Positions 2,267 to 61,460 of a stretch of 64,000 nt of DNA are shown piece by piece. Source of the stretch: Membranipora membranacea (Eukaryota; Bryozoa; Gymnolaemata; Cheilostomatida; Membraniporidae); assembly GCA_914767715.1 (NCBI GenBank), contig OU612069.1, positions 5,084,001-5,148,000 of the forward strand, read 5' to 3'. Positions within the stretch are counted from its first letter, which is position 1, and each line of letters begins with the position of its first letter. Made by a program: the position numbers and the translations under genes. Under the pieces are notes generated by a model. It searched no databases, had not been told where the DNA came from, and was given only the letters and a program-made list of their open reading frames with translations.

Positions 2267-2673
2267 ATACAGCCTGAACAATATAACGGAAGCCTATCAA
2301 CAGGACAGCACTCACTACTAGATGGAGACCAGCCAAGATATCAACATTCAGGAATACAATGTATCAACACCCAGCACAAGTCAGCTTAGCAGAAGCAGAA
2401 TCTCTAGAAGGCTCTATTCTTTAATATGATAACTAGACAGATACAAAAGCTCTCCAGATTATCTAGCATTAGCTCATTATGATGAGGTTCACAATTTACT
2501 CAACTTCTCTAGGTTATCAAACCACATCAAGTACTAGGCACACCATCACTAACACCACGGCAACTAGACCATCAGATTTGCAGGCGACAGTTAATTGATC
2601 ACCAGGAGTGTAACACCAGCCCCTCGATCTCCAGGTTTGCAAGCATCATCTCCACTACAAAGTCATCACTTAA

Positions 2674-2864
2674 AGGGATAATACACTTCTGATCTCTGTT
2701 TTGCAGCCAATGGAGCACAGAAAAATGTATGCAAAACTACAATTTAGAATGCACATTTGAGCAGAACAAGGGGTTTTGAATTACAAATAAGGAGTTTATG
2801 TATGTACATACATTTTTCTGTGCTCCATTGGCTGCCAAACAGAGATCAGAAGTGTATTATCCCT
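2674..2864. mobile_element. 191-bp MITE with TTAA target site
   Basis: Near-perfect terminal inverted repeats of about 58 bp starting AGGGATAATACAC are flanked on both sides by TTAA (2670-2673 and 2865-2868). TTAA target sites are typical of piggyBac and Kolobok; the AGGG start favours Kolobok. Confidence 0.75.
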
Positions 2865-2869
2865 TTAAC

Positions 2870-4005: not shown

Positions 4006-4009
4006 TTAG

Positions 4010-4174
4010 CTTCTAACACTAACAATCATTGTACTATGGCTGCCGAACACACGGACTACTCTCATGATGAGTCTGTATACCACTCATCTAATGAAGACTT
4101 TGACGAATCAGTACCGACTTTTACAACTCATCAAACTGGATATACGGATGAGCAACAGGAATCGGAATATCAAG
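4010..4174 (+). CDS. Disordered-protein gene, exon 1 seen
   Basis: The frame is open from an acceptor-like ggagattag (phase 1) or from ATG at 4036 (context tactATGG). It encodes DESVYHSSNEDFDES, a motif repeated in the exon at 7802. The donor CAAG|GTTTGT leaves phase 1. It could be the first coding exon or an internal one. Confidence 0.5.
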
Positions 4175-35990: not shown

Positions 35991-36073
35991 TTATGTATGT
36001 GTGACAGTCCACTTATAATACTCAGCAGACTGGACTACACGCCCCCCTCGTTTTATCTCTCTGACTTCTTTCT
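35991..36073 (-). CDS. Terminal exon of the LRR-ROCO-caspase gene
   Basis: Twenty-seven codons end at TAA (35991-35993) after the acceptor tttctacttgtag. Phase 1 matches the preceding donor at 36305. It encodes a basic tail (EVREIKRGGRVV). It is too short to be recognised by itself; the match of phase and acceptor is the evidence. Confidence 0.6.
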
Positions 36074-39000
36074 CTACAAGTAGAAAAAAATCTGATAACA
36101 ACAGATAGAGATTATTAAATTAGCAGATCAATTCTACGGACAGCATTCAGGATTATTTTGGATATAATTATATACATTATGAAGTTATCGTCAGATGCCC
36201 TGCTCATCCATAATAATATCTTTCACTTGCCTCATTTATAGTACTAGTACATGAGTCAAAAATACAGTATCATATAAGCATCCAAATAAGAGGAGTGAGC
36301 TTACCTAGAAGTGGTTCAATCCTAGTAACCACCTGGTTTGGCACATTCGCAAACATCTCAGGTGAGTTCTGAATTTGGACTCCAGGTAGCAGATACAGTT
36401 TTCTCAGATTAGTGAATGTGCAGACAGTTTTAGGCATCTGAGAGACATAAGAGGCAGCAGTGGGAGCTGCAGCAGCACCTCTGTTCAGGTTCTGATCTGT
36501 TCTCTCCACTCCATATCTTGTCACTGATTCTCTTACCTGCAATTTTGATGGTTGAAAATGGTAATGCATCATCTGTAAGAGTTTGAATGACTTCATGATT
36601 GGTTAAATGATTTCAGAGAGTGTAAGGTTGAATTATATTTATGAAATATTGGAGGTGAGAATGACTCCGATCAAGAGATTTACTTCAATTGATGCATCAG
36701 TAGTTTAGAGTAAGTTGGGTTAGTCAGTTGCATTTATAGGCACTTAACCGTTTGTGTCCATGAAGAAATATCTCAATATAACAAGGAACTTATGCAAGAC
36801 TTACTATTTCAGCCAGAGATACAACATCATGCCTATGTCCCAGGGTGTATAAGGTCGCCACCAAAGCTCTGATGAAGGGTGATCCAACGCCAGGGTTCCT
36901 TGGTGCAGCAAAAGCTACAATAGAAATTACTCTATGATACATAACAAATCCATTGACCCATTAATACCTAAGGTGGCTGTAGTTCTGCTGTAATTTTATA
37001 ATGGAAGAATTCTTGAAATAATCTTCAAATGATAATACGAGGGATAGTCCCCTCTAGTGCGATGGATTCATGACTGTACTGTACTGACTGTACTGTACAA
37101 CCCCAAATAACTGCCACTTCTAGAATTATATTGCTGTTTAAGCTGAACTTTTATGCTGTTGAATACTCACAATCAAAGCTGGACTGCATAATGATCATAT
37201 CTGATATAGATATGTCTTGTGTATCATTGTCCACTTCAAAGTCATTAGAACTCGGCATTGTCACAACCTGAGTGCTGCTATCAGTTTGGGGAGCTCTAAC
37301 AGCTGCTGCTCCAGTAGTGAGGTCGTCTCTCAGCATTTCCCGATTACCTTTGTGAAAAAATGCGGATAATGATCATGAGCTGCAATAATTAGTAGATATG
37401 CTATCAGCCTGTACTGTATTGTATCACTTTCTTGATTGTATAAGCAAACTGTCTTGTTGTCCTTGTTATGTCCTTTCAGTTTCAACTTCAACATGATGTT
37501 ATAAGCTGCACTCTACTTAAAAACCAAATTTGGTGCTGCTGCCTGATATTATTTCTCATTCAAGTTTAACAATACTTACTGCCAGCACATGCTTGTATGA
37601 TCACAATCTTTGGTCGGCCTCTCATCACAGAGAAGTTCTTAGGGGAGAGTAGATTGTAAATATCCGTTAGTCTGATGAAGACTCTGTCAGAGCCAATAAT
37701 ACAGCCCTCGTCTCCATGACTGGTTAGCACGAGTACAAACGTCCCTATATGCCTGTGTACTGATTGACCGACTGCATCTGTTAACTGTGTCTCGCAGTGG
37801 ATAGCTTCGATGATTTCCTAGTTAAAGAAAACTAGCGTAAGCCCCCAATAAAAGGTTTAGTTTCTCAAATTATTGGCTGAGATAGTTTACTGCATTGATG
37901 ACATAGAGCGGTTACCCTGGAACGTGATCAGATATTGTCAAGGAGGGATGATTCTAAACCCTGGTCATTCGTAACAATCAATCGTACATGTAAACAAATC
38001 ACAGATTGTAAATCTTTAGCTTACCCTTGCAGTGAAGCTTTTATGATCACCTACAGTAACAAACCCTAATTTATCAAGCATACACTTGATATTCTGATAG
38101 TCATGTTCGGAACCTCTCCTTGTCTGGTTATAGTCGTTAGAGACAATCAGAGCACGTCCTCGGCATTCTGTCATCTGGTAAGCAGTCTGAATATAATCAA
38201 AAAATAAAGCCTTGATGATCTTTGAACTATTTTGTTGCCTCGTAAGCTTTAAGATTGGAGAATTGTACCCAGGAACTTCCGAAAAACAGCTGTAATTATT
38301 CACTTCATAGACACAGCCTTCGAAGTTTGTGTAAAGACATGAAAATATCGATCAAAATAATAACAAAGTAGCAGCTTTATAAACCTGGCTTTCAGGGATT
38401 AAACTCTGATCTGCTTGTTGTGGTTCCATATCTATCTGGGGTTGTATTCTTTGCATGATCTCCACTACATCCTGAACTTCGGACATCTGGATCTCTGGTA
38501 TGCTCTGGCCAGGATCATCTGCTGTGAGAACAGGAGGAGGGTCAGGTTTTACATAGTGCTTATTAGAATTTGAATTTTCTCTGCCTGTTTTCTTTTCACC
38601 GTAGAAACCAAGTTTCGCATGATTAATTCAGTAAAAGAGAGCTGTTGACTGACCTGATCCCGCAGTTGTCTCCTCCCTTCTTATGTAGTCATCAAGAATT
38701 CTGACTCCCTCCTCACTGATCTTAAGACCTGTTAGAAACAACAGCAAAAATGGCAAGGTTAGCACCCCTATTGAAACAATCACTTGGTTAACATGCAATC
38801 CCGAAAATAAATGCTACAAATGGTAACAAATGAATTAATCGGATCTGCTGAGGCAGATAATGATATTTTTCCATGAACTTACATGGATATCTGAGAGGTA
38901 GCGGGACACGCCTCCTCCCATCGTTGGTGTCACATGGACAAGTCTCCTCTCCAGTGTAGGTGGTATGACGGGGCTCTGGCAGTTTGTATCTGACACTCCT

Positions 39001-42000
39001 GTTGAACCACTCAGGATTGACAAATGTTGCTGGTGATGACTGTTTGGTCAGTAGACAATGGGTGCAGTAGAAGACATGTTCATATCGAACTCCTTTCCAC
39101 ACAGAATCCAATTCAGATGTAAGCCGCTTCATTGTTTCTAGTTGGGTCTTCCAAGCATCGCTGATAAGCCTGGCCGGTGTTTGCGTGATGAGTGTCACTC
39201 GTTTTTCTTTCACATTATGCAATAGATACCGCAAGACACCGTTCATCTCTTGCACACTCGCTCCATTTATACCAGCTTCAGGTGTGTTGAATGGATTGAC
39301 GCATATGTCTAGAAATCTTGCAGTGATTACATGATATACGTATTGGGGTACGCTGAGGCCGTTTAGATACAGATCGACTCTCAGCTGAAGGTGATTTGTG
39401 CCTTCTGTTGGGTTTAGTATGTTCTTAGTGCTGAAATAGGGAACGATGAACTTCTCACTGCCATCACTTTCTATAGGTCCACAGATCAGGTGAAATGTTT
39501 TCAGCAGCGTGATACCAACATCAACAGGTAGTTCCGATTCATTGCTGAGCAGATTGTGTAGTAATGCACCTCTTATGATTCCTGTGGCTTTGAAATCATT
39601 GACCATGCTGACATACTCTAATCTGTCCACAGGTCTTTCCTTATATCTGTAGGGTCTAAATTTGGTTATGCGATGTTCCCATGCTTGAGCATCTGCATGA
39701 TCGTAAAGTGTCCTTATGACATCAGCAAGAACTGAAGGGCGATGGAATAAATAGTCACTCATCTTCTCAATGTCCTGAAACCACATTATTCTTCCTGCTT
39801 CTTTGACGTACTGCAAAGCATGCTCACTGTTCTTACTGAAACCTTGTATGAATTCAGTAACAGAAACATAAGGCTTTTGCTCCTCAGCAGTAAGCTTATT
39901 CAGCACTTCATACCAACTACCGGGTATATCAGTGATCAGCTTAGCCCCTGCTTCCTTCAGTGCACTCTTTAGTGATTTGATATCCATCTTGCTCGATGAA
40001 GCCGAGAGCTCTAGTATTGTTGTGATCAGGGGCTGTGCTCTGTCGATGAAACATGTCATAGAGAAAAATGAGCTGTCAGGCATAGCAACACCCTCTTCTG
40101 ATTGAATTACATCTAAACGCAGCTTCTCTGTTGCTGATAAAAGCTGTTTCTTCCTCAGTTTGAGGGTCTCGTTGCTAAGCAAATCACCATGAGTCAGTAC
40201 GAGCACTGGTCTTCCTAGGTTTGGTTGTGATGTATATAGGTGCGCTATCCACTGGAAGCATACATCCTGAGCTGCAGCCTCTACTCCATGCGCATGTACT
40301 AAACTGTCAAACTCTGCTATATCTACCACTAGAAGTGGTACAGATTGTACTTTGGCGTTCACTTGATAGGCAAGGTGATACACCTCATGCCCTCCCAAAT
40401 CAGTGAATACCAACTTCAATTTCTCATCAATGTCAGCCTCGCATACATTGAAGACACGTGTTGCCTCATCAAGCTTGATGTCGATATTGGAACGGGTTGT
40501 CAGCACACGCTGATCCTTCTGTATGCTCCTCACAATGCTTGTCTTTCCTGCTTTAGTCTTGCCTATGACTGTTACCGGAATGAGTCTGAAAATGTTATCT
40601 TTTTCAGCATGAAGATCATGCAGATACTTCCTTACAGCTTCTATACCCTGTATGCAGACAGCATAGGGAGGAGATACTAGTGCTTCGCAGTCGTCACATG
40701 TGAAGGTCTTTAGCGTGCTGATATTGAAGATACTTTCAGGTATAGAGGAGAGTGACCCGTTTTCTCTAATATCAAGTACTTCCAGTTTGGTGAGTTGCCC
40801 CAGGCTGTTTAAAAGATAAAAATATATTTACTTTCAATCATAATGAGCGTTGCCGACATGGGGATGAACTTTTAGTCATGACTAGACAAGTGCAAGGTAC
40901 AGTGAGTGGTATGGTGGGTTGGCCAAGGTTGCACAAGAAGATACAAATGTGTTGAAATTTGGGGAAAATGGCGCAGTCATTGCAGCCTCGCCCTCAAGGC
41001 ACACACTATTTCGCCGCCACGGTGTGGTGAGTGACTAACCCTTGTGATTTTAACCAACATTTTTAAAGCCAACTAATGACTTACTACTAAATTGTGAGTT
41101 TGTTACTTGCAACAGGGCCAAATGATATCCAGCATCACAACACCCGCTATCCCAGCAAATTAAAAAAAAAGTTTACTTTTATTTATTTTTCAATGTAATG
41201 CAATGTAACGTAGAATAATAAGTCATTCTTTCGTTTGTTATTTATCACTTCTGTTGTGACAGCTCATCCCCACCCTATTAATTTGATCAAAATTGTAGCG
41301 CTGATTGTTTTTCATCCTTTTGCTAATATGCTAATCAATTTCAACCTAAGACCACCTCCAGTATGCAGTAAATTTATTACTTTGTGAGGCCTTACGTTGC
41401 ATTCTAGGCTTTGGGGGTCGGGGTTACTCCCTGAACCCTGAATCGGGGGTGTGGATGGGGGAGGGGGGCTTACAGCGCTTCTCCCAAAGCTGAGATTAAT
41501 TGATATTACTGTGCTGCACAGGATAGTCTACGATGGTGGCAGGTTCACATTCAAAAGCTAGAAGTCACTCCTGTTTAGGGAGCCCTGATCTGAGCAACCC
41601 TGATTGTCACAATAAACAACATGGAAAATGAATTATGGTGATCTATTGACAATATTAGTAAAATTAGTAATTTAAAGATCCTTGAACTGAGGAAATTTTA
41701 AATTTGATAGGCCACATAATCATGATAACAGCGTTATTTCGCTCTTTTTTTCAGTGACAAAGTTCTCTTATTCACTTGTAATCGGCTACATTTAGTTATT
41801 TTTACAGGATAATACACACTTGGCATCGTAACTTTCAACATAATCTTACTTGATAGAGTTGAAAGTCTCAGATTCTCACTATCAAAAAACTTGTCTTATT
41901 GACTTACTGTACAAATTATTTTTATTTTAAATTGGTACACAGTTGATTTATTATTACATGAGGTGATGAGGACTAATTAATTTGCTAAATATAGTCTCAT

Positions 42001-45000
42001 CAAACTGCATTTTTGTTCTGGTCGATTTTCTTGCTAATTGCCAAAAATAGATATAATTAATCAAATTAATATTATGCCTTATTGATAACTTCCCTCATAC
42101 TAGGAAAGGTTGCTCCAACATAATAAAATGATAATAATAATAATGAAAATTTCGCTAGTTATAATAATGATATATGTTTGTATTATGCACATGTATTATT
42201 GGATTAATAAGTATTGCCCCTCATGTGAATGGAAGGAGACAACTCAATAGAGCGATCAAGATTGATACAATATCTGATAGTTATTTTGTATCAAGTTTGC
42301 CCTGTAAACTTAACAAATTTAGAAAAGGTTACAGTCCAGTAGACCTAGGATAGGTAGGATGTACTCCATCCCATAGAAAGCTAAGTAAAGTAGATATTTC
42401 ATGTCAGCTTGGAAAAGCTCCTTTGGGGTATGTACTGAAATGCCGATAAACTGAAAACCCAACATGAGAAGCATAGGGCACCATTGAAAAGTGCTGCTTT
42501 GCACCCTCAAGGATTATTACTTTCCCTAGATTTTTTATAGATCAGTTTTTGAGAATTGGCACCGGTATTGTGATATTTCAGACAGTTTAAATGACACATA
42601 ATATTATATCAAACCTAATTTCAATTCGGTAAATTGCAATTCAAATCTGTATGCAGCATTAATTTGAAGAGTTTTAAGATATAACATCCTTTGCTGGTGT
42701 CTTACTGAACATTGTTCCAGTTATGCATCTTCCAAAATACTATTTCCAAGGTGGTATAGAAACATTGCGGCAGCAGAAATCATATCCCATTACACTCATG
42801 CTACTTGTTGAGAGGACAATCCAATGCTCTAATATTATTGGAATGAAAAGTATCACCATTATGATGAGAAAAAGCACTGAACGTTGTGACAGTTTTATGA
42901 AAAAACATTACCACAATGCATCTCATTTTGAACATTATCAGTGGCTATGAGATGGTTGTCACAGCATTATAAAACAAACTTCATGAGATGATCATAAAAT
43001 AATGCTGTAGTGATGGAAGAACTGTGATGCTATAACATTGTTAAAATTGAATACTTTTTGATAGCATGATCATAACATCATGAAAGTGCTAATTATAAGC
43101 TGTATTCTCACATTTAACAGTGATGTATCATCATGTCAAAAATAATTTTTGACTAATACTAAGAAGCAAAGATTCTGCTATAACTGAATCTGAACATTGT
43201 GATTACCATTCTGTATCCTATTAGACAATAACCCAATCCTATCATTTACACACCATGTAATACTTGAAAAATTTGTATGCAATACGATGTTACAATGTTC
43301 ACCGTTTGCTGGGTTTTGACCTTCATTTTTTAACAAGAAGTCAAACAGTTTTTAGGTTATGGAATATAGGGATCACAAAAATTCTCAGGGATCAATATAT
43401 TATTAGCATTTATAAACTTGGATTGTCAGCATTGTGATAGGTAAACTATAAAAAAATCCTTTTCTTTTATATCTACTGGTAGGTACATATAACAATTGCC
43501 TTAAACAAACTGCTCACATGGATTTGTAAACAAAAGTCAATATCTCCTTGTCTAGCATACTCAGCAAGTCATCATGGAAAAGGTAATAAAACTGCCAACA
43601 CAGGTCTCCAAAATTTAAATTCACACTTCCGCTTTTGAATTTTACTAATCGCAGTCACGTAGATATGTTGGTGGTTGGTTGTTTGACTGATCTAAATACA
43701 ACAGCTTTATTTTCAGTTTTAACGCTTTGTATATTTGGTATTTATTACAAGTCATTGCCATCATCTTAAGGGCAAATCCTCCACCTGTACTATTTAAATA
43801 TTTACAAACATATCCAACTGTCAACAAATAGTCCATTGAAATAATGAAAGTGAAAGATTTGAAAGAGTTCCAAAAAAGTCGCCACCTCCATAAATGGGGT
43901 GCAATCATAGACTTGATTATAAACCTAGACATGACACTATATGGATAGTGAGGCACTAAGGGACTTAATTGTGGGCAACAAACGTCATTGGAAGGTGTAG
44001 AAGCAATGATGCTATCATTGATTTTCCGTCCACAATCCAGGTTTTTTAATCATAACTAGATCAATTTCGATCGGATTTTGAGTTTGAAAATTACAATAGA
44101 TTTAGCAGCTTATCTCATTTACGGCAAAACAGATTTGGAAGTCAGTGACCTGTTACCCCACAAACTTGATATACATATAGAAAGTCTTTTGTTCTGCTAC
44201 ACAAAATCCACAAGAAATTTAGAAGAATAGAAACAAAAGACAGTGGATATTCTAGTTTGTATCAACTGTTGTGTCATTTGATTGAAAGCCCAGCAATTTT
44301 GAATTCGGCACCCTATACTAGAATTGAATGTAAATGCTAATTTCATGTATTTAATTTGGCCCTCAAATCGATTCCACACCAAAATATGGAAACATAGTGA
44401 TTTTGAAAAATAATTTCGATGGGCAAAAACTGTTGCTAAACTGAACTAATACTAGGCAAAAGTAATGGATAAAAATTCATGCAGCAGCAGTGAATTTTTG
44501 TCGATTGTAACTTCAATAACATCCGAAAATTAACAAGTGTTATTATTAATCCACACAATTAAATTTCATTTTGATTCTGCAAGGGTTTGGTAGCTTTGGT
44601 CTTAACCTTGTATGATATTTTTAAATATGCCTATCGTACACCATGCTCACTGAGCTAGAACTTTATCGACAGAGGACTTAGGAATAGGAGGTATAAAGTT
44701 TCCTTAGCAAAATTTTTTGAATTGATGATAATCCAGAGTGGCAGCATTTCACTCAGGATGGTAGCATTAGAGCTGGGACAATTTAGTATCCAACAGTTTC
44801 CTCTATTCTTTTTTCTCTATGATAATTTTGAATTATTCGCCACAAGCTGGTATGCGTATACAGAAACTTACTGTATTAGCCAAATGATTACTGAAAATAA
44901 GCGAAGGCTCTCAAAAATTATTGATCCTACTAATCTGTGCCTTTCCCTTGTACAGAGACAGCTAGAGATTGATAGTTGTATCATCAAAGAATACAGCGGT

Positions 45001-48000
45001 GTTTCCGTTGGAGGGGAGGGGAGGGGGGGGGGGGCCTCACAGCGCCTCTGTCAAACCAAAAAAGCTTTATTCTTTTAATCCAAGAGTTCATTTCGTGTTC
45101 CACTGCGCTGCACAGGATAGTCAATGAAGACAGGATCACATCTGAAAGCTAAAACTCCATCCTGATTAGGAAGCCCTAACCTGAGCAACCCTGATTATCA
45201 GAATAAACAACATTTTAAATGAGTTAGATTTAGATATTTTCATAATCAAAGCAATCTTAGAAGCTGTGCCCATTACATATTTTCTTAAGGATGTCAAATA
45301 ACTCTATTTAAGTAAAAAAAAATTCGTACTTGTTAGTACATTTTAGTAATTACTACGAGATAATACACCCTAGGCATCGTAATTTTGTACTTAATATAAC
45401 TAATTGGTATTGGAAATCTCAGATTATCTTAATTTTTACCAGAAAGTGATGACGTAACAGAGTCATTTGCCCAATAATCAAGTTATTGATGTTCCTAAAC
45501 TGGTTTGGCAGATCAAGCAACATTTATCAAGCTGGTCTACATTGCCATACAGAGCAGCGCCAACCTTTCTTGCACTAATTAACAACATTCCAAGGCTGTG
45601 AATATCATTCTAGAACTCTGTTGGTTTGATGACTGCTGGCCTGATTCATACCTGGGGTGTATTGCTATGTAGGCAAATTGAGATTTTCAATCCAAGAATA
45701 ATTCTTGCCAAAGTAATTGTTATTATTATAATTACGAAATTATAGATTCACTTGGTTGTTTTATAAATACAGGATTTTCAAGTGGGAGATATGGAGTTAA
45801 AGTTATCACAAATATTTTCCTGAATTAATATCACAAAACATATTATTGTGATAAAATTATGGTTATTAATGTACTGTGCAACTATCTGTTTGAAACTGTG
45901 TCGTTTGATTATTTAAGCCTGCATGACAAGAATAAGTACCACTTTTAACAGCATGATAAGAGCGTTTGAATTTGTAAGAACAGGATTCCGAATTTGGCAA
46001 TACGTGGGCGTAGACTTGTGATACAGATAGTCGTTTGAACTTGATCTGTGCTGCCCAGTATTGCTTATTATTATTATGATTTATTATGATATTGATTGTT
46101 TATTTTTGCCAATTGTTACATATTAAATGAAATTATTTTCAGTTGCATAGACTATGAGCCAGCCTGCCAGCGCGTCAGACAATGAACAAAACTAATTAAG
46201 GAAGTATAGCCTCATATCTGATTGTGCATTGATACAATTGTAAATCGTTGATTTTAATTTTTAAACACCCACCCGAGGTGTGTGGCTGATGGGATTCGAA
46301 ACGTTCCACGTTGACCATCTGTTGAACAAATTTAACGGGACAACCTGTACTAAAAAGGCATAAGCAGATGGAAAATTTGTTTTAATGGACATACAGTTTT
46401 AGCTGAATGGATAAACCAAATTGAATGGCGAATCTTTTTTCAGCTCAATGACCTCCTCCCACTTGCCCTAAATGAAATTACATTGGTGTCAGAGCATTTT
46501 TGGACTGATCAATCCAACAAGCCACCTGGGAAAGAGGTATGTGTTGGGTATACCATGAATTGGCTACATTGTTTTTATAGAAACAGAGGGGCAACAAATA
46601 TTACATAGTATACAACATGTATTATTGAACCTCATCGGGACAGACCTAAATAGACCAAGATGAACATGCATGCTATGGCTGGTTCATGCCACAAAGTTAA
46701 AATTAAAAAACCGCTCAATTTATCCTTATATTAACTGATATGGCACTTGTATGCGCTTCTTGTGACACGCCTATTAAGACAATAATAGGGGAATGAGTGG
46801 CAAAACAGCAGACTGATCAGTTTAATTTTTCCTCCCTCTCGAGCCCACATTTTGTGAAACTCACTTCATTTTGCAATCATTGATATAAGTTTCATATATT
46901 GCCAATGCAACGTCAATCGAACCAAGTCACAATTTATTGAAGCAGTCTTTTAGAAACCAGTCTTTTATTTGGTCAAACACCTATTTTCTCTTGACATACT
47001 CATTCGAGAACAATCTACTGCAGCCTGTCTAGCAATCCTGTATAAGGAGAGCAAGTTGTGATACTGTTGAGATATTTGAATACTAGATGTATAAAAATGA
47101 CAAAAAGAGAAGCTACACACTCAAAAATCATAACCGTGAAATAATCCTTTGAAAGTATCAAGTTAAAGAAGATACAAATGTGTTTAAGTTTAAAATTGAT
47201 GCCATGTTGCATACACAACAACCCGGCAGTGTCGAACAGATCCTGGCATATTTGAAATTTAGGGAAATTGGCGCAGTCATTGCACACTCGCCCTCAAGGC
47301 ACACATTATTTCGCTGCCACGATGTGGTCAGTGACTAATCCTCGTGATTTAACCAACATTTTTTAAGCCAACTAATGACTTAGTACTAAATTGTGAGTTT
47401 GATACCCAGCATCACAACACCCTCTATCCCAACAAATTAAAAAAAAAGTTCACTATATTTATTTTTCAATGTAATGCAATGTAATGTAGAATAATATGTC
47501 ATTCTTTCGTTTGTTATTTATCACTTCTGTTGTGACAGCCCATGACCACCCTATTAATTTGATCAAAATTGTAGCGCTGATTGTTTTTCATTCTTTTGCT
47601 AATCTGCTAACCAATATCAACATAAGACCACCTCCAGTATGCAGTGAATTTATTACTTTGTGAGGCCTTATGCTGTTCTCTAGGCTTTGGGAGTCAAGGT
47701 TCAACCCTGAACCCCGTATCGGGGGGTTGTTGGGGGGGGGGGGGGGGCTTACAGCGCTTTTCCCAAAGCTGAGAATAATTGATATGACACTGCGCTGCAC
47801 AGGATACTCAATGATGGCAGGTTCACATTCATCATTGAACTTGGGAAATTTTAAGTTCGATAGGCCACATAATCGTGAAAACACCGTCATTTCGCTCTAT
47901 TTTTCAGTAACAAAGTTTTCTTATTCAATGGTAATCGGCTACATTTAGTTATTTTTACAGGATAATACACCCTTGGCATCGTAACTTTTAACATAATATT

Positions 48001-51000
48001 ACTTGATAGAGTTAAAAGTCTCAGATTATCGCTATCAAAAAACTTGTCTTCTTGAGTTACTGTACAAATTATTTTATTTTAAATTGAGGAGGACCAATAA
48101 ATTTGCTAAATATAGTCTCATCATAATGCATTTTCGTTCTGGTCGATTTTCTTGCTAATTGCCAAAAATAGATATAATTAATTAAATTAATATTATGCCT
48201 TATTGATAACTTCCCTCTTACTAGGAAAGGTTGCTCCAACATAATAAAATGATAATAATAATAATGAAAATTTAAATAAAGATAATAATGATATATGTTT
48301 GTATTATGCACAAGTATCTTATTGGATTAATAAGTATTGCCCCTCATGTTAATGGAAGATGACAACTAAATAGAGCGATCAAGGTGTAAGGTCATTGATA
48401 CAATATCTGATAGTTATTTTGTATCAAGTTTACCCTGTTTACTTAACAAAGTTTGAAAAGGTTACAGTCCAGTAGATCTAGGATAGGCAAGATGTATTCC
48501 ATCCCATAGAAAGATAAGTAAAGTAGATATTTCATGTCATCTTGGAAAAGCTCCATTGGGGTATGTACTGAAATGCCGATAAGCTGCAAACCCAACATGA
48601 GGAGCATAGAGCACCATTGACAAGTGCTGCTTTACACCCTCAAGGATTATTACTTTCCCTATGTTAATTATAGATCAGTTTTTGAGAATTGGCACCGGTA
48701 TCGTAATATTTCGGATAGTTTAAATGACACATAATATTATATCATACCTAATTTCAATCCGGCAAAGTCGCAATTCAAATCCGTATGCAGCATTACTTTG
48801 AAGAGTATTAAGAAACCACATCACTTGCTGGTGTCTCGCTGAACATTGTTCCGGTATGTTGTTTATACTTGTCTTCCAAAATACTATTTCCAAGGTGGTA
48901 TAGAAACATTGCGACAGCAGAAATCATATCCCATTACACTGATTATATTGGTTGAGAGGACAATCTAATGTTCTCATATTATTGGAATGAGAAGTGTCAC
49001 CATTATGAGGAGAGAAAGCACTGTACGTTGTGACAGTTTTACGAAAAAAACATTACCACAATGCATTTAATTTTGAAAATCATCGGTGGCTATGAGGTGG
49101 TTGTCACGGCATTATAAAACAAACTTCATGGGATGATCATAAAATAATTCTGTAGTGATAGAAGAACTGTGATGCTATAACATTGTTAACATTGAAAACT
49201 TTTTGATAGCATGACCATAACATCATTAAAGTGCTAATTATAAGCTGTTTTCTCGCATTTAACAGTGATGTACCGTCATGTCAAAAATAATGTTTGACTA
49301 ATACTTAGAACCAAAGATTCTGCTATATCTGAATCTGAACATTGTGATTACCATTCTGTATCCTATTAGGCAATAACCAAATCCCGTCATTTACACACCA
49401 TGTAATACTTGATAAAATTTTATGCAAAACAATGTTACAATGTTCACCGTTTGCTGGGTTTTTGACCTGCATTTGTAACAAGAAGTCAAAAAGTTATGAG
49501 TTTCTGGAATATAGGGATCACAAAAATTCCCAGGGATCAATTAGCATTTATAAACTTGGATTTTTAGCTTTGTGATAGGTAAACTATAAAGATTAATCCC
49601 TTTTCTTTTATATCTACTGGTAGGAACACATAACAATTGTCTTAAACAAACTGCTCATATGGATTTGTAAATAAAAGGCAGTATCACCATGTCTAGCATA
49701 CTCTGCAAGTCCTCGTCGAAAAGGTAATAAAACTGCCAACACAGGTCTCCAAAATTTAAATTCACACTTCTGCTTTTAAATTTTACTAATCGCAGTCACG
49801 TAGATATGTTGGTAGTTGGTTGTTTGACTGAACTAAATACAACATCTTTATTTTCAGTTTTAACGCTTTGTATATTTGGTATTTTTTCAGGTCCTTGCCA
49901 TCATTTTAAGGACAAATCCTCCACCTGTACCATTTAAACATTTGTAAATATATTCAACTGTCAACAAATTGATTATAAACCTAGACATGACACTATATGG
50001 ATATTGAGGCACTGAGGGACTTAATTGTGGGCAACGTTACGTCATTGGAAGGTGTAGAAGCAATGATGCTATCATTGATTTTCTGTCTACAATCCAGATT
50101 TTTGTTCATAACTCGATCAATTTTGATCGGATTTTGAGATTAAAAATTACAATCGATTTAGCAGCTCATCTCATTTACGCCATAAAAGATTTGGAACTCA
50201 GTGACCTGTTACCCCACAAATTTGATATACATATAGAAAGTCTTTTGTTCTGCTATGAAAAATCCACATGAAACTTAGAAGAATAGAAACAAAAGACAGT
50301 GGATATTCTAGTTTGTATCAACTGTTGTGTCTTTTGATTGAAAGCCCAGCAGTTTTGAATTTGACACCCTATACTAGAATTAAATATAGATTTAATTTCA
50401 CGCAGTTAAATTTTAATTTGATTCTGCAAGGTTTTGGTCTTTATATTTTTAAATATGCCTATCGTATACCATGCTCACTGAGTTAGAACTTTATCGACAG
50501 AGGACTGAGGACTAGGAGGTATAAAGTTTCCCAAGCAAAACTTTTCAAATTGATGATAATCCAGAGCGGCAGCGTTTCACTCAGGATGGTAGCATTAGAG
50601 CTACAACAATTTAGTATCCAACAGTTTCCTCTACTCACTTTTCTCTATGATACTTATGAATTTCTTGCCACAAGCTGGTATTGTTGGTATGTCGGGTAGA
50701 TTCAGTAGTGAATTCGCCATAAAGGCTAGGGGACTTGACCCTACCAATTTTCAGCGTGTCAATTTTGAAAAACCTCTTGTTTTTAATTACCAGGTGCCCA
50801 TGGGGCCTCATTGTGAGATTGGTTGGAATTATGAATGGATTACGCTAGTTTACTGGGTGCAATAGCCGATTACCATGATTTTCCCCATTGACTGCCCTTT
50901 AAAGAGGATATCATCATGATATTCCTGTGACTTAGAATAGATGTCTTTTATATGTTTGTGCCTACAATCTGAGCAAATAACTATAGCCAACGTCACTAGG

Positions 51001-54000
51001 CACTGATTTGCTTCATCCTTGATTTGGGTACACTTTACACTTATTAACAATTAAGACCATTGAAACAACGGTCTTTTATAAAAGATTCAGGCAATCAAAT
51101 TTGAGTCCATAATTGCAAACAATTTGATATGGTCTTCTACTATATAGCTAATCTGCAGGAGTGAACTCTCACTGCAGGAGCCATTGAATATTCTCAGAGT
51201 TGACAATAACAGGATAATCTCACTTATTGAACCCACCATGCACAGACCATTTATAAGAGATTTTATAAAGGAACATTACACAGGACACTTTTATGTGTAA
51301 ATACCTAGAGATAATAATCGGCCTTCCCTCTATTCTTTCTTGGGGGATGAGGCATCAGATCCATTGTAAATTTAATGTAAATGAAATTGTTCTAAGGAGA
51401 CAGGAGACACCTATACTTGTTTATGTGAACAAACTCAGAGTAGTTCTCACAAGATGATGTCTCAATAACAAACAAAGGTGAAATCACCAAGCAGGGTTTA
51501 TGGATATGGTTAATCTATCACATTGGGCCTATTTTAAAACTGGCAATACACGGTGTACAAAACATGTAAAAAATTTGTATTTAAGTGTTAACAGCTGAGA
51601 AGGAATGTTTTTCCCTGATCTGACAAAACACTAGAGTCTAGAAGCTTTGAAATATTACAACATAACGCAGTGGGATTGCTGTGTGTGCCCCTGTGCGATG
51701 TAAGAAGGTTGAGATACATTGCTTGGATGCTGCTTGAATTTGTTAATCTGTGACAGGGATTTGAGAGATCTAGTTTCTAATATCAGTGCTTACAGTATTG
51801 GTTAATTCGCTGTAAAGTTATGATCTGGGCAAGATACTGAAACTTGGAGGCCTGAAGTTAGAAGAGGCAAGCTTGACAAGGTATTAAAAAAATTAAGGGT
51901 GTACTGTGGTCACATTAACCCCCCTCATGTGTACTGAAAGGACTTAGGAAAAATAATGAATAATTATATCCTCTTGTCCCTGATTGGAATCCGAATATTT
52001 CTCTGTCATGTGGAGGTTTCTAAATCTACTGGTTCTTCTATCAAACCTAGGTAGTTTTTATATTCTGCTTTCACAATTAAATATGGGTTCAATTTTCATA
52101 TTAGGAACAATAATCTAAGTCAGCATTCAATACTCATAATCTGATATTATTTTAAGTGATGTCATGTTAGAAGACAAGACTACAGGTTCACATCAAAACT
52201 TCAGTGTGATATTAATATTGTATCACTGTATTGTGCTGAGTGTGAGGCCTCTATTCAATTCAATGCTTTTCATCGTTACAACCTTTGGTAAACAAAAGAA
52301 TCCTTTATATGCTGTACCTGATTCTTTTCAATAGAGGATAAATGTAGCGTGTCAGCTTGCATCCAAAGTTTATATGAGAAAATTGAGAAAAAATTTTAAG
52401 AAATGCTGCATTAAATGAAGGGAAAATACGATAGAGTGACCCTATATGATTCATCTATTGGCAACGTCACAACAAGGTCACACAGAAAATTTGACGCTTC
52501 TAGCATTTGTAGAAAAGCATTTTAATTGAGTCATCTGGTTAATAAAAGTTAATTTTTTGCCAACATTTCATCATGTTTTATGAAATTCGTGATTTTTTGC
52601 ATTGATTTCGTGGATTAAATAGTAATTAAACCACCAAGCCTGGAAAATAACCTCCAATTATTTTGTGATGATTTCAGCATCAAATTTAAAAAATGTAGGA
52701 GGAGTTAAAGAGGAGACCATATAAGTCACAGAGAAGCAGAAATATCATCGTGTTGATAACAAGACGCTGCTGTTTGTAAAGCAATTTTAAACTCGAAACA
52801 CGATCAAAATTGATTGAGTTATGAACATAAATTCTAAATCGTTGACAGTAAATGATAATATCATTGCTTACTACACCTTCCAATGACGTTGTGTTGCCCA
52901 TTTCAGCTATATGTAGTGTCCTGTCTAGGTTTATAATTAAGTCTATGGGTGCAATTGATTATGTTACAAAATTTAATAGAAATTTGTTATCATATTTCAA
53001 TTAATGTGCAATAATTTAGTATTTACCCTAAAATATACAGCCTATATCTTGCTCATGAAATTCGTCACAGCTTTAGAGTGTCACAATACACAAATAAGTA
53101 ATATTTACTTCTAAACTTCTAACTACTGATAGCTTATAATCGTTTAGTTGAGGGACGAAAACTCATGCTGCTAGATATTTCGTCATCACTTGCACATACA
53201 AATCTTCTGCAAATAACTATAGCTATACTCTTAATATTTACAAGTAGGGGATGATCTAATGAAGTCATTTGCCGAACAATCAAGCAGGCCTATTGAGATT
53301 TTCAATCTTGAAATATTTTTCCATAAAGTAATTTTTATTGTTATAATTACCTAACTATGGATTTAATTACTTCTTTTTATAAGAATATTACGGAATCTTC
53401 AAGTGGGAGATGTGTGATGGAAGTCAACAAAAGTATTTTGATATAGAAAAACATATTATTGTTATATGGTTAGTAGGGCTTTCGGTTAGAAGATGTGTCT
53501 TTGCCCATTCAAGCCTGCATTACCAGACTAAAATCCATTTTTTACAGCACAATTGGTGTGAACTTGATTAGTGCTGCCACAAAAAATGAATTTACTGTGA
53601 TATTCAAGAGCCTGTCTGCCAACATGTCTACAAACAACAAAACCGATAAGGTGGTAACAACAGTAATTATTTTGTCTTTTTGTCCTGTGACGGTAATTAT
53701 TTTCTCCTTCTTGTTTTTGTAAATACTTTTGAGAGAGAAACTGCTTTAGTTCATAACATTAAGAAAGTTTCGACTGCTTGCTGAACAACGAAAACAAGAA
53801 AAAGGAGTTACCAGTAATGCTGCCAGTAGAAGGTCCCATAAATGAAATCAGTGAAACAGAAGTCAAGATCCAGCTAGAGAAGATGAAAGCACACAAAGCC
53901 ACAGGACCTGACCAACTACCAATAGAGGTTGTGAAACTGCTCAAAGAGAGAGGGATATCATGGATGACAGCATGTTTGAATAACATCATTTCAGACAGGA

Positions 54001-57000
54001 TACCACAAGAATGGAGAGAAAGTGTGATAACACCTATATACAAAGAAAAAGGAGACCCCTTGGAATGCGGAAACTATCGCGGTATAAAGCTTCTGAGCCA
54101 CTGTTTGAAGCTTCTGAATCCACATAGAAGTCGGACTACACCAAGGATCTGCGCTGAGCCCGTTGCTCTTCATAATAATCATGGACGTGATAACGGAGGA
54201 CATTGACGAGGACCCACCGTGGGCAATGCTATTTGCCGACAAATCTGGTTCTATGCGATGAAGATAGAGGGAGCTTAGAGAGGAGGTTAGAGATCTGGAG
54301 GGAGAAAATGGAGAGTGTCGGACTCAAGCTAAGCAGAAAGAAGACAGAGTACCTACAACCTGAAGGAAACCAAGGAGACATCTATTTGAAGAAGTATGAC
54401 AGTGAGGAGAGGGTTCCATTGCCAAAGTGTTCTCAATTTAAACCACTATTCATCAAGAGGGAGGGTGCCGCAAGGAAGTGGAGCTGAGGATATCGAAGGC
54501 ATGGAGCAAATGGAGAGAGCTCACAGGGTGATTATGTGAGAAAAAGATGCCATGCAAACTGAAAGTTCTAATCTACAAAACATCAATACGACCAACCCTT
54601 CTCTACGGAAACGAAAAATGGCCAATAACGGGACATCTGTCAGATAAGATGGCCTCATGCGAAATGCGCATGGTCCGGTACTGTCTTGGGATCAGCCTTG
54701 AGGAACATAGGAGGAACGAAGATATTGTACAAGAAGCAAAAGTGGTGCCAATTGAAGACCTGATGAGAAGAAAGAGAATGCAGTGGTTTGGACATGTTCA
54801 AAGACGAGATAGTCAGGAAGACATCAGAAAAGTATGTGAGATGGAGATAGATGGCAATAGACCTAGAGGCCGCCCTAAGCAGAGATGGAGTGATACAATA
54901 AATGCGGACCTCAGATGGCTGGATCTTGATAGCAGCGATTGGGAAGACCGGAGCAGATGGAGAAGTCTGGTTGAGCTTGGTATCAAGCAAAAACCCGCCA
55001 CCCATACAGGACAAAGGCGGTGAAAGGTGAAATTAAGAAAGTTTAGCGGCACATCTGGCAGTTCAATGATTCAATGAAAAAGAAGCTGCGTTGATACCTT
55101 TAGTAGGCGTTGATTTTTATTTTTAAGCACTCACCACTAGGTAAGTGGCTGACAGGATACCCGACCGTTAGCCTGTGTCCATGCGGACACAGTTGGGGGG
55201 ACAACCTGTACTGGACCGGTATAGACCGGTATAGACCGGTATAGAAGGAAGGGCAACTTGTTTTATTGGACAGACCAATTTTGCTGAATAGGCATGGGCG
55301 GATAGTCAAAACGGAATGCCCAACTGCTTCAGCTTGATCTGAAGCCTTTACCGACTGGCCCCTAGTGAAATTACATTATTGCTAGCAAGGTGCTTAGTTG
55401 ACATTATGCTGAGAACAGCTTAAATTAAGAGATTGTATGTGCCAGTTAAAAGTCTTCATCCACAAGAAGAGATGTTAGGGCCCGTGTAAAATTTACACAA
55501 ATTTGGAGCAGTCCAGTGCTCTAAATAGCAAGATTGCTCTTGTATGATGACTGTAATGACTGAATACTTTAAAACACCACCTGTATTACTGACCCTTATT
55601 TGAGCAGACCAGAATAGACCTAGATGAGCATGCATGCAATGACTGGTTCATGTTCTAGCTTGAATTTAAAAAACCTATCATAGCAAGCAAGCATTTTCAC
55701 ATTATTACTACACAGCACTTAGACATACTTCTTGTGTTACACTTGTTTAGACAAAGAGGGGAATAAGTGACAATAACAGCAGTTACTCCCATTATTATGT
55801 CATAAGACTGATCAGTGTAAACATCCCTCAATCTCTAGCCCACATTTGGTGATGCTCGCAGCCTTTCGCCATCATTTATCTTAGCCTTGAATGTTGCCAA
55901 TGCGACGCCCATCGAATTAAGTCACAACATATCGAAACATTATTTTTGAAACCAATCTGATCAAGCACCTGTTTTCTCTTGACATAATCATTCGAGAAAA
56001 AACTACTGCAGCTTGTCTAGCATTCCTGTTTAAGGAGAGCGAGTTGTGACGTTATGACAGCGTCTTATTTTGATTTTGATTTGATTTTCTCAAACTAATT
56101 TTTCAGAACATGTCCTTCATGCAGTTCGACAAATTAAAATATTTAGGAGAAGTTTTAGGTAAAAATTTCAATTTAAAATCCCATCTCATCCCATCTGTTT
56201 GGAAAGCTGGTCAAACCACAGCCCCAAGCCTTTATTGTCTTCAATGATCGAATTTGCCCCAATCCTGCAGGTATATTCTGTAGGCCCTCATTCCCACTAA
56301 CCTCTAATGACTCCAGTCCTGACAGTGTGCAGATGCTGTGGAGGAGAAATAATGTAACGTTAAGATCCCATGCAATACTGTTTGTCAGTTCATGGTGCAA
56401 ACACGATTGGGCGACACATTTGATTAATGAGAGAAAGTTTTAGATTGAACATTTATCTAGGAAGAATTGTACCTATCAGATTTAGATTTTGCTGTCCGAA
56501 TAGATTTGGGTTTCCTTTTAATGCAAGTATCTGACGAGATAGCAGTAACCATAAATCAATTGAATTGCAATCTGACGTTTCAGATATGAATAAGTATTTA
56601 TATTGATGCAAGTAATGCGATTCAATTTATCAATTGATAGTGAAATTTCAGTCAATCCATAAAAAATATGGAACATTGACTAGCCTTTGCTTCTGACTGG
56701 TATATTTGTAATAAATTGTTACTCAATGCATCAAAGTCAGATGTTATGACCTCGTCCTATTTCGATATTGATTTTCTCAATTTTATTTTTCAGGGCATGT
56801 CCTTCAAGCAGTCTGACAAACTAAAAGCAATTTGAGAAAAATGAGATAAATGTATGAACTTTAAATCAAATGTCAATGAGATTGAAAGAAACCTAACCCA
56901 ATCAGAGCAAACTTTGAGAGAAATTGTAGGTTTTTGAATGGAACGTTAGCTGCAGTCGTGTAGGCAGGGTAAATAAAACCAAAGATGGAATATTCCACTC

Positions 57001-60000: not shown

Positions 60001-61260
60001 TTTCATATATTGCCAATGCAACGTCAATCGAACCAAGTCACAATTTATTAAAGCAGTCTTTTTGAAACCAGTCTTTGATTTGGCCAAACACTTATTTTCT
60101 CTTGACACACTCATTCGAGAACAAACTACTGCAGCCTGTCTAGCAATCCTGTATAAGGAGAGGAAGTTGTGACACTGTTGAGATAGTTGAATACTAGATG
60201 CATAAAAATGAGAAAAAGAGAAGGTAATGCTAATTTTAAAATGTCCAGTTATGTCTTTTTTCTTTACATGAGAGCTCCAATTCAGAGTCGATCAATGAAA
60301 CTTAATAGATGACCAATTTTGAATTGTGTGCATGATACATATTATTGCTAATATTGTTAAATTGTTAGTAGTGAATCATAATATAATTGCATATGTATGT
60401 GCTTTCATTATCCTTACGCCTAATTAAACCGATGATGCGAGAACTAAATCATTAGCACTAAAAACCGGAGTTCCCAATTTTAAGTTTTCCTCAAAGGAAA
60501 ATTATTGTAATGGGGTCAGACCATTGTTTTCCTCACCTCTTTTTAGGGAAGCGCATGTCGTTTACTCAAAGTTACTACTGTTGCAAACATCTGACTCACA
60601 TGTATGTTTCAGATATTCATAGGTATTTGTAGTGATGCAAGTTACGTTCAATCTATAATTGCTTACAAAAATATAGACTTATTATGTAGATATAAATGCT
60701 TAATTAAACTTGTTTTCTAGTGATGCATGCCATGCGATTTAATTTATCAATCCATAGTGACATTTCACTCCATCCATAAAAACTGTGGAATATTCACTAG
60801 CCTTAGCTTCTGACTAGTATAATTTTCATGCGTTGCTACTCAATGCATCAAAGATAGATGTTATGACAGTCTCATATTTTGATTTTGAGTTGATTTTCTC
60901 TAACTAATTTTTTAGGGCATGTTGTCCTCAAACATTCTGATAAACTTAATTATTTAGGATTAATTTTACTTAAAAATACGGCTTCAAATCCCATGTCAAT
61001 TAGAATAAACAAATCCTAACCCCGTCATAGCAAACATAAAGAGAAATCACCATACTCAGAAGGAACAAACTAATTGTAAAAAAAGTCTGATATACTACTG
61101 TTGCAAGCATCTGACTCACCTGTCTGGAAGGCTGGTCAAGCCACAGTCCATCGCATATATACTCTTCAATGATGGAATTTCCCCCAATCCTGCAGGTAAC
61201 TTCTGTAGGCCCTGATTCCGGCTAACCATTAACGACTCCAGTCCTGGCAGTGTGCAGATG
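35991..61260 (-). CDS. LRR-Roc-COR-caspase fusion protein (10 exons seen, 5' end outside the window)
   Basis: The exons, in transcript order, are 61260-61120, 40804-38883, 38728-38654, 38518-38385, 38186-38025, 37817-37580, 37347-37171, 36914-36805, 36536-36305 and 36073-35991. Every junction has AG/GT ends and matching phase (2, 1, 1, 0, 0, 1, 1, 0, 1), giving about 1,090 residues to a TAA stop. Domains in order are LRRs (about residues 1-95), Roc GTPase with Walker A near residue 130, COR, a Cys-rich end, an acidic/Gln linker, caspase p20, an Asp-rich linker, p10 and a short tail. From family knowledge, Roc-COR proteins dimerise and switch with GTP, and caspases are Cys proteases activated by proximity. 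I infer a self-contained sensor/switch/protease. All catalytic residues are present, so it looks functional. The least certain link is the 20-kb intron to the LRR exon, although its phase 2 fits exactly. More LRR exons probably lie to the right of the window. Confidence 0.85.
36305..36536 (-). CDS. Caspase p10 C-terminal part
   Basis: A 232-bp exon, phase 0 in and 1 out. It encodes VRESVTRYG followed by SQMPKTVCTFTNLRKLYLLPG, matching the end of caspase p10 (polar loop, then LRKKLYF-like strand). An Ala/Gly insert (GAAAAPTAAS) enlarges the loop. About 30 further residues form a tail outside the usual caspase fold. Confidence 0.83.
36805..36914 (-). CDS. Caspase p10 core
   Basis: A 110-bp exon. 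It reads FAAPRNPGVGSPFIRALV, aligning with the family segment ending SWR...GS-x-FI-x-x-L. The S1/S3 Arg is kept while the Trp before it is Pro. A helix (ATLYTLGHRHDVVSLAEI) follows. Phase 1 in, 0 out. Confidence 0.83.
37171..37347 (-). CDS. Caspase inter-subunit linker and start of p10
   Basis: A 177-bp phase 1-1 exon. It encodes a linker rich in Ser, Thr and Asp (DFEVDNDTQD), a plausible place for maturation cleavage after Asp, then ISDMIIMQSSFD, matching the first p10 strand (family form ADFLIAYAT). Confidence 0.82.
37580..37817 (-). CDS. Caspase p20 with catalytic His and Cys
   Basis: A 238-bp exon carrying TSHGDEG with the catalytic His codon at 37716-37718, and IIQACAG with the catalytic Cys codon at 37587-37589. 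Most animal caspases read QACRG; Ala replaces Arg here, which some active caspases tolerate. Phase 0 in, 1 out, donor GTAAGT. Confidence 0.9.
38025..38186 (-). CDS. Caspase p20, N-terminal part
   Basis: A 54-codon phase 0-0 exon. It contains RGRALIVSNDY, matching the first core strand of caspases, then TRRGSEHDYQNI, the R-x-G-S-x-x-D segment that supplies an S1-pocket Arg, and LDKLGFVTV. Donor is GTAAGC. Confidence 0.88.
38385..38518 (-). CDS. Linker exon 2, acidic and Gln-rich
   Basis: A 134-bp exon, phase 1 in and 0 out. It encodes an acidic, Gln/Ile/Met-rich stretch (EVQDVVEIMQRIQPQIDME) that precedes the caspase. It may act as a spacer or as a caspase-cleavable prodomain, since several Asp residues are present; this is inference only. 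A CAGCAG acceptor allows a one-residue alternative. Confidence 0.65.
38654..38728 (-). CDS. Linker exon 1 between COR and caspase
   Basis: A 75-bp phase 1-1 exon encoding a predicted helix (ISEEGVRILDDYIRREE). Acceptor tttctaacag and donor GTCAGT. It joins the COR exon and the next linker in frame. No known domain is recognised. Confidence 0.7.
38883..40804 (-). CDS. Main exon: last LRRs, Roc GTPase and COR
   Basis: This 1.9-kb exon starts after tttaaacag at 40804. About 45 residues of LRR (LTKLEVLDIRENGSL) lead into a Ras-like Roc domain. Visible G motifs are G1/P-loop GKTKAGKTS at 40563-40537, G3 DLGGHE at 40401-40384 and G4 THGD at 40194-40183. About 400 residues of COR follow, then a Cys-rich end (YCTHC, CPCD, RYPC) that could bind a metal. 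The exon ends in phase 1 at a GTAAGT donor. Nothing is truncated in the G domain, so nucleotide binding looks intact. Confidence 0.88.
40942..44760. repeat. Duplicated block A, copy 1
   Basis: About 3.8 kb directly repeated, with substitutions and small indels, at 47250-50640. Landmarks are GGCGCAGTCATTGCA at the start, a G-rich run, TAATACACCCTTGGCATCG-like sequence and the CATTGGAAGGTGTAGAAGC end. No conserved reading frame, so this is non-coding duplication inside the large intron. Confidence 0.75.
45015..45460. repeat. Duplicated block A, partial third copy
   Basis: Matches about 41455-41880: G-run, CTGCGCTGCACAGGATAGTC, GAGCAACCCTGATTAT and TAATACACCCTAGGCATCG. Confidence 0.6.
46260..47060. 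repeat. Interspersed repeat C, copy 1
   Basis: A 0.8-kb unit with GATCAATCCAACAAGCCACC, CAGAGGGGCAACAAA and AGCCTGTCTAGCAATCCTG. Four copies lie in the large intron. Class unknown; no coding region. Confidence 0.6.
47250..50640. repeat. Duplicated block A, copy 2
   Basis: Direct copy of 40942-44760, lacking about 100 bp near 47830 and other short segments. Both copies keep the order of all landmarks. Confidence 0.75.
51610..53510. repeat. Duplicated block B, copy 1
   Basis: About 1.9 kb directly repeated at 62205-64000. Shared landmarks are ACACTAGAGTCTAGAAG, ACATAACGCAGTGG and CTTTCGGTTAGAAGATGTG. Confidence 0.75.
53771..55031 (+). mobile_element. 5'-truncated LINE with internal deletion and 13-bp target-site duplication
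   Basis: RT motifs are KATGPDQLP, CGNYRGIKLLSH, GLHQGSALSPLLF and LFAD, then a 3' part with EMRMVRYCLGI, RMQWFGHVQRR and RPRGRPKQRW. The palm region between LLSH and LHQGS is deleted and the frame shifts twice. ATTAAGAAAGTTT is repeated exactly at 53758-53770 and 55032-55044. RTE/CR1-type LINE; it interrupts an older repeat. Confidence 0.85.
55110..56050. repeat. Interspersed repeat C, copy 2 (diverged)
   Basis: Shares GACCTAGATGAGCATGCATGCAATG-like sequence and the TGTCTAGCATTCCTGT end. Contains a triplicated GACCGGTATA near 55215-55245. Confidence 0.5.
56195..56335 (-). pseudogene. Relic copy of the LRR exon, splice donor destroyed
   Basis: This copy has the same 141-bp length and frame as the LRR exon at 61120-61260 and still encodes a good LRR pair (LSGLESLEVSGNEGLQNIP). 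The position after CAG reads ATGGGA instead of GTGAGT, so the donor is lost. The acceptor side (ctccacag) is intact. Flanking intron sequence is also duplicated. Confidence 0.65.
58690..59376. repeat. Interspersed repeat C, copy 3
   Basis: Same landmarks as copy 1; directly followed by copy 4, so part of a local tandem pair. Confidence 0.55.
59390..60180. repeat. Interspersed repeat C, copy 4
   Basis: Closest to copy 1 (46260-47060), including AGGGGAATGAGTG and the CTGTATAAGGAGAG end. Confidence 0.6.
61120..61260 (-). CDS. LRR exon of the LRR-ROCO-caspase gene
   Basis: This is a 141-bp phase 2-2 exon encoding about two leucine-rich repeats (residues read like LPGLESL, LPAGLGEIPSLKSI, GLTSLPD). 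The acceptor is tcctccacag and the donor CAG|GTGAGTC is strong. The trailing AG joins the leading C of the exon at 40804 to give Ser, continuing the LRR register into LGQLTKLEVLDI. A symmetric phase lets such a cassette be multiplied without breaking the frame, and two decayed copies lie nearby. Confidence 0.75.
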
Positions 61261-61394: not shown

Positions 61395-61460
61395 AAGGCT
61401 GTCTGTAGGCCATAATTGTTACTAACACTCAACAACTCCAGTCTTGGCAGTTTGCAGATG
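61395..61460 (-). pseudogene. Second relic copy of the LRR exon, truncated
   Basis: It starts like the other copies after ccaccacag (ICKLPRLELLSVSNN), but the similarity stops after about 22 codons and the second LRR and donor are missing. It lies about 150 bp upstream, in transcript direction, of the intact exon, showing local exon duplication. Confidence 0.55.

Follow-up and report, generated by a model that had tools for sequence, protein, structure and literature searches.

A leucine-rich repeat–Roc–COR–caspase gene family predicted in the bryozoan Membranipora membranacea

Membranipora membranacea is a cheilostome bryozoan, a colonial lophotrochozoan. The stretch of its genome analysed here (64,000 nucleotides of contig OU612069.1, hereafter the window) corresponds to C5:5084001-5148000 in the genome searched (18 contigs, 339,339,785 bases) and carries on its minus strand a gene predicted to encode leucine-rich repeats (LRRs), a Roc GTPase, a COR domain, a linker of ~70 residues and a full caspase, in that order. 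The gene is very probably a member of a large bryozoan LRR-Roc-COR-linker-caspase family; it is not a one-off, as relatives occur on several chromosomes. A preliminary description of this DNA had drawn attention to the gene.

Read from 61260 to 35991, ten phase-matched exons bordered by AG and GT (phase run 1,1,0,0,1,1,0,1) give an open reading of 1,095 residues (Table 1). All borders are intact and no stop precedes the end of the frame, in agreement with the ten phase-matched exons proposed in the preliminary description. The modelled part begins with the LRR cassette exon, and the gene extends 5′ past the window edge. Joining exon 61120..61260 to the exon that begins at 40804 restores an LRR (LTSLPDS followed by LGQLTKLEVLDI) across a repeat-rich intron of 20 kb; the junctions, this one above all (61120/40804), are predicted from the genome sequence. 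The COR exon and the caspase exon are separated by 697 bp.

Roc scores above its Pfam cut-off and has intact G1 (GKTKAGKTS), G3 (DLGGHE) and G4 (THGD) motifs; COR follows directly and its fold is recovered. The caspase comprises p20 and p10 with the His-Cys dyad (SHG, QACxG) and both substrate-binding (S1) Arg positions. It is of the animal type, its best match among solved structures is CED-3, and the family caspase profile matches CED-3 and caspases 1, 9 and 6 across p20 and p10. The intact G motifs and complete caspase claimed earlier are thus borne out. Among six family members, Pfam identifies the caspase and Roc in all six and COR-A in three. In the modelled part Pfam lists no CARD, DED or Death domain (E up to 1), nor does it in the two full-length proteins of Watersipora subatra described below (E up to 0.1), which upholds the contrast drawn earlier with caspases recruited through CARD or DED. 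On sequence and structure the protein belongs to the Roco GTPases and to the animal caspases (C14A), both activities being predicted; judged on the modelled part, it appears to lie outside the CARD/DED/Death domain initiator caspases. Neither NACHT nor NB-ARC is present in the Pfam table of the modelled part, where the switch is Roc, and the predicted protein would therefore not be an NLR/STAND receptor, a class defined by such an ATPase. Near the end of COR a C-x-H-C motif (39066-39055, minus strand) is invariant, as is a Cys that follows it; together they may form a metal site where COR gives way to the linker.

Twelve close copies of the gene on chromosome 5 were cut out; the last two exons are covered in no copy, and for three copies the coverage extends to five exons only. 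In all twelve the Roc-COR, linker and caspase exons lie in the order of the window. For the 78 exons inside the fetched stretches, length is identical in 78 and the donor is GT in 78, while the acceptor is AG in 77; the exception is a CG acceptor in copy L010, which also lacks the DLGGHE string. Joining the exons gives a 2,817-nt frame that is stop-free in the window and in all nine copies with seven exons (10/10). The same ten retain GKTKAGKTS, THGD, SHGDEG, QACAG and PRNP without exception and DLGGHE in nine, and R-x-GS is kept in 12 of 12 close copies. Ratios of non-synonymous to synonymous substitution (dN/dS) are highest in Roc-COR (0.70), followed by the caspase exons (0.45), the two linker exons (0.30) and the p10 exon (0.19), at a dS of only 0.01-0.03 and, for the linker, on few changes. 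With the window included, thirteen close copies lie at C5:4.1-7.6 Mb, spaced ~0.17-0.5 Mb apart, with six other Roc-COR matches interleaved, one of which (L050) was opened and has the second caspase type described below. The array looks like the product of repeated duplication of large segments.

More distant relatives were modelled at eight loci on six chromosomes (C1, C5 twice, C8, C9 twice, C10 and C11) with a purpose-written splice-aware aligner, which can hide a defect behind an intron. All eight spliced models are without a marked frameshift or stop, and the caspase lies just 3′ of COR on the same strand, the two exons being 510-1,051 bp apart. Roc-COR is 23-43% identical to that of the window, and p20 49-64%. 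The intron directly behind COR is phase 1 in all eight, and those before and inside p20 are phase 0 in all eight; the full phase run is repeated only by C9_2053 and C10, the others losing, gaining or shifting an intron. G1, G3, G4, HG and Q-x-C-x-G are present in 8/8 models, the catalytic His standing in TSHG in both C1 and C10, and R-x-G-S/A is likewise found in 8/8 (in the motif table the reading of both C5 loci stops short of p10). The C-terminal ends of the C9 and C10 models (FLKWKV and FYKWLV) can be set beside the tail of the window protein (Table 1). Trees of Roc-COR and of p20 agree on window + C10 + C1, on C8 + C5, on the C9 pair and on the Watersipora pair; a C11 + C9 group is present in the Roc-COR tree only. 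Distances in the two domains are correlated (r = 0.70, 0 of 5,000 permutations).

The preliminary description had suggested a search for Roc, COR and caspase in other genomes, and the same architecture was found in two proteins of the cheilostome bryozoan W. subatra. A Roc-COR query against proteins of similar length gave 20 matches, only two of them named: the NCBI proteins P0016 (1,386 residues) and P0019 (1,219 residues), called MFHAS1-like and MFHAS1 homolog. They are 34 and 32% identical to the window Roc-COR over 99% of its length, and each carries LRRs together with a caspase domain (E = 8e-38 in P0016, 1e-36 in P0019); their Roc domains fall below the Pfam cut-off (22.8 and 26.2 against 27 bits), and P0019 has the motifs DHGGHQ and YRSPEYGTWF. 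Used as a guide, P0016 finds 38883, 38728-38654, 38025, 37817, 37171 and 36914-36805 in the window and wrongly places linker exon 2, the 5′ border of caspase p20 exon 1 and the intersubunit part. A profile search returned 13 proteins, twelve at 41-53% identity and P0021 97% identical over 58%; none of the 13 has a listed caspase domain, and P0016 and P0019 are not among them. Across the similar-length and profile-search matches, only P0016 and P0019 carried a caspase domain. When 5.8 billion proteins were queried with the caspase, none of the 7,992 that were scored reached E 0.001, a negative that carries no weight. P0016 begins with MGAKSSK (residues 1-7), which we take to resemble an N-myristoylation signal and which hints at placement at a membrane.

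The family extends well beyond these loci. A search of the genome with the family caspase gave 145 matches from 140 of 515 candidates scored, which merged into 137 loci. Roc-COR lies upstream on the same strand in 23 of 29 caspase loci (eight automatic best matches and 21 chosen by hand), and at most 4.6 kb upstream in five of eight drawn at random from the 107 unsampled. From the side of the GTPase, a search with the Roc-COR exon gave 69 scored matches of 359 candidates. Among those 69 listed, 25 have a caspase from the family search within 4 kb downstream, and the 24 nearest relatives (window included) have one without exception. Seven of the other 44 were opened (L049-L055), and all seven have a caspase of a second type, first seen in L048, one of the 25. 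This type II caspase is thus known from eight loci; L050-L055 match that of L048 at 48-62% identity (6/6). Pfam finds its p10 in L048 and L049, and the p20 of L048 has no Pfam match of its own. All eight type II caspases retain HG (as SHG or THG), QAC and the Arg of R-x-x-A; seven have lost the G of QACxG. A loss of the first substrate Arg in type II was considered and rejected, R-x-x-A being present in 8/8 (R-x-G-A in four). In L048 the donor after COR and linker exon 1, read by eye, hold their place and phase 1, so that one kind of splice junction precedes both caspase types; at this phase-1 intron one effector may have been exchanged for the other.

In the loci covered, intact LRR cassettes of 141 nt and phase 2, with AG and GT borders, number one in the window and one in the upstream part of L037; the C9 paralogues L024, L025 and L026 together have seven, two to three each. 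Two copies of the cassette in the window are broken (Table 1). L048 is unlike the window in its LRRs, with more than 20 of them in a single open frame with Roc and COR (positions 2-4030 of that locus, at least 1,342 codons). Inside the 20-kb intron, the stretches 41300-45000 and 47500-51000 are similar by eye over several kb, in the same orientation and offset by ~6 kb.

The preliminary description favoured a single gene over two, and the paralogues and the second species support this: the close copies and the eight diverged loci keep the caspase behind COR with the spliced frame open, the architecture recurs in the two W. subatra proteins, and 32 of 32 Roc-COR matches examined, of the 69 listed, have a caspase of one or other type behind them. 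Chance juxtaposition of LRR-Roc-COR and caspase is ruled out by the dozens of loci. Two neighbours that were duplicated together, an MFHAS1-like LRR-Roc-COR gene and a separate caspase gene whose fusion is an annotation artefact, are an improbable explanation. MFHAS1-type proteins without a caspase do exist, and COR ends near an exon border beyond whose donor the frame continues for ~30 codons to a stop, so that an unspliced end is possible. Two genes are, however, hard to reconcile with a phase-1 intron kept behind COR in 8/8 diverged loci at 23-43% identity, with a linker exon that is found by the protein of a second species (P0016), with the short distance between COR and caspase exons, with the low dN/dS of the linker exons, or with the three introns that separate COR from the caspase in the window, in which neither AATAAA nor ATTAAA occurs. 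It is also unlikely that the family arrangement is real and the window copy decaying or non-expressed, deprived of a working upstream LRR by the repeat-rich 20-kb intron. There is a broken LRR exon in that intron and a truncated one beside the intact cassette, the window also has a reverse-transcriptase fragment nearby, and the sister copy L010 has lost an acceptor and DLGGHE; set against this, the borders of all ten window exons are intact, there is no premature stop, and the catalytic and nucleotide-binding motifs persist across the close copies as given above. That the caspase is a regulatory pseudo-protease or a scaffold in a Roco signalling protein, with an output other than cleavage, we hold to be equally doubtful as the co-duplicated pair: the type II p20 is divergent and mostly lacks the G of QACxG, but the window type keeps His and Cys in 10/10 close copies tested and both Arg-containing and dyad motifs throughout the diverged models, and even type II retains HG, QAC and the Arg in 8/8.

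Several observations weigh against a single fused gene conserved as a family. The gene is known from the genome alone, and readthrough of two adjacent genes would be possible; the Watersipora models are predictions that bear NCBI's names. The window's complete phase run recurs in only two of the eight diverged models, and the C8 model carries an 'intron' of ~40 bases within COR, where the aligner may mask a defect. The correlation of Roc-COR and p20 distances falls to 0.42 (180 of 5,000 permutations) once two near-identical pairs are removed. The Roc-COR dN/dS among the close copies points to weak constraint or to diversifying selection, and the linker value derives from few changes. Six of the 29 caspase loci (L001, L002, L005, L007, L008 and L017) showed no Roc-COR, the available flank being only ~1.5 kb in five of these, and three of the eight drawn at random likewise showed none. 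The caspase check spans 32 of the 69 listed Roc-COR matches. A role in immunity is an inference.

In the Apaf-1/CED-4 apoptosome and the NLR inflammasomes a sensor and a nucleoside triphosphate switch activate a caspase by proximity; these are separate proteins with a STAND ATPase and recruitment through CARD or PYD. The comparison is one of working principle: the window gene encodes a single chain with a Roc GTPase, and by analogy its product would work like an apoptosome or inflammasome in one chain. MFHAS1/MASL1 has a similar LRR-Roc-COR layout, and human MFHAS1 is not known to have a caspase. The preliminary description knew of no caspase as the effector of a Roc-COR module. This was too strong, since bryozoan examples are already in NCBI as MFHAS1-like and, according to the passages seen of PMC8195603, bacterial LRR-AP-GTPase-COR proteins bear at least 24 C-terminal effector domains, caspase included. 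The bacterial caspase proteins share with the window gene variable LRRs, a Roc-type GTPase, COR and a caspase effector, in order, and the bacterial conflict proteins come as several paralogues per genome with different effectors (PMC8195603, same passages). They are prokaryotic, whereas the window gene has introns, LRR cassette exons and an animal-type caspase; it belongs with them by architecture alone, compared by description. Among animals, amphioxus has LRRs-caspase and TNFR-caspase hybrids, proposed as a shortcut from recognition to apoptosis, in which a receptor module is likewise fused straight to a caspase that retains QACxG; unlike the window gene, they are described without Roc, the term occurring 0 times in the main text of PMC2575513. 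Brown algae have a large family of LRR-ROC-COR proteins, proposed immune receptors, whose LRRs also lie on repeated phase-2 cassette exons; those exons are of 72 nt with one LRR each, and the passages seen of PMC11378527 mention no caspase. ROCO proteins of Trichoplax with CARD or Death domains (PMC4104024) and of Aplysia with TIR (PMC9334734) are, in the parts seen, animal Roc-COR fusions to cell-death or immune domains, which are adaptor or recruitment domains and not the protease itself. No animal Roc-COR-caspase was found described in the portions covered of open-licence full texts, sponge and bryozoan caspase literature included, and the bivalve caspase paper PMC7836458 yielded no passage on LRRs or on a Roc domain. 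As far as these texts reach, the fusion is new for animals, its bacterial counterparts being already known.

The window protein is most likely a receptor-switch-protease fusion that would act by proximity activation. The LRR arc would bind a ligand or damage signal; binding would shift the Roc-COR module in its nucleotide state or its association and bring two or more caspase domains together; these could self-cleave within the Asp-rich stretch that follows QACAG and links p20 to p10, and the activated caspases would cut cell targets, leading to cell death or an inflammatory signal. The GTP-driven dimerisation of the preliminary description is unsupported as written. The Roco protein of C. tepidum is dimeric when free of GTP and monomeric when GTP is present, and the switch could therefore have either sign. 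Family size, cassette-built LRRs and clustered copies are more in keeping with an immune or self/non-self receptor than with a housekeeping apoptosis factor. More tentatively, bryozoans might possess perhaps hundreds of one-protein 'inflammasomes', diversified by LRR cassettes and by exchange of the two caspases at the phase-1 intron, for detection of pathogens or colony self/non-self recognition, beside or in place of NLRs; this would make them the animal equivalent of the bacterial LRR-GTPase-caspase conflict systems. Such a protein is plausible as an all-in-one danger detector, with sensor (LRR), switch (Roc-COR) and cell-death enzyme (caspase). If so, a sensor-switch-caspase pathway that takes several proteins in well-studied animals can fit in one chain, and Roc-COR-caspase would offer a testable system, with a protease read-out, for how the state of Roc-COR controls an effector, an open question for LRRK2. 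The family is also a pointer to an extensive repertoire for immunity or allorecognition, so far uncharacterised, in a phylum of colonial animals, in parallel with the bacterial conflict systems.

Table 1. Exons of the window gene, LRR exon remnants and the type II caspase locus (window positions unless stated)
Feature	Positions	Strand	Remarks
Truncated LRR exon remnant	61403..61460	-	beside the intact cassette
LRR cassette exon, 141 nt, phase 2-2, two LRR units	61120..61260	-	AG acceptor, GT donor
Look-alike LRR exon	56194..56335	-	inside the 20-kb intron; donor reads AT
Last LRR, Roc, COR	38883..40804	-	C-x-H-C motif near COR end
Linker exon 1, phase 1-1, CLKISEEGVRILDDYIRREE...	38654..38728	-	recovered by P0016 guide; counterpart in L048
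Linker exon 2, phase 1-0	38385..38518	-	tandem CAG acceptor (38521 or 38518); P0016 guide fails to recover it
Caspase p20, exon 1 (RGRALIVSNDYN..RRGSEHD)	38025..38186	-	P0016 guide: same end, start 103 bases earlier
Caspase p20, exon 2	37580..37817	-	catalytic His (SHG) and Cys (QACAG)
Asp-rich intersubunit segment (FEVDND inside) and p10 start	37171..37347	-	putative site of self-cleavage
Caspase p10 (FAAPRNPGVGSPFIRALV)	36805..36914	-	
Caspase p10 end (QMPKTVCTFTNLRKLYLLPG)	36305..36536	-	
Last exon, C-terminal tail (YYKWTVTHT), stop	35991..36091	-	
L048, type II caspase	C11:3046800-3053300; caspase at 4758-5261 and 5530-5952 of the locus		type II motifs across L048-L055: SHG/THG, QACQ-x, R-x-x-A

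Elsewhere in the window, the reverse-transcriptase fragment mentioned above lies at 32563-33279 on the minus strand (RVT_1, E = 3e-7). On the plus strand, open reading frames at 53763 and 54532 (region 53763-55023) resemble pieces of a retroelement by eye and are without a Pfam match. Long open reading frames at 19046-24930, also on the plus strand, have no Pfam domain above cut-off; one contains RVSF and SILK motifs, presumably of the PP1-docking type, and the product is perhaps, as a guess, a RIF1-like or other chromosomal protein.

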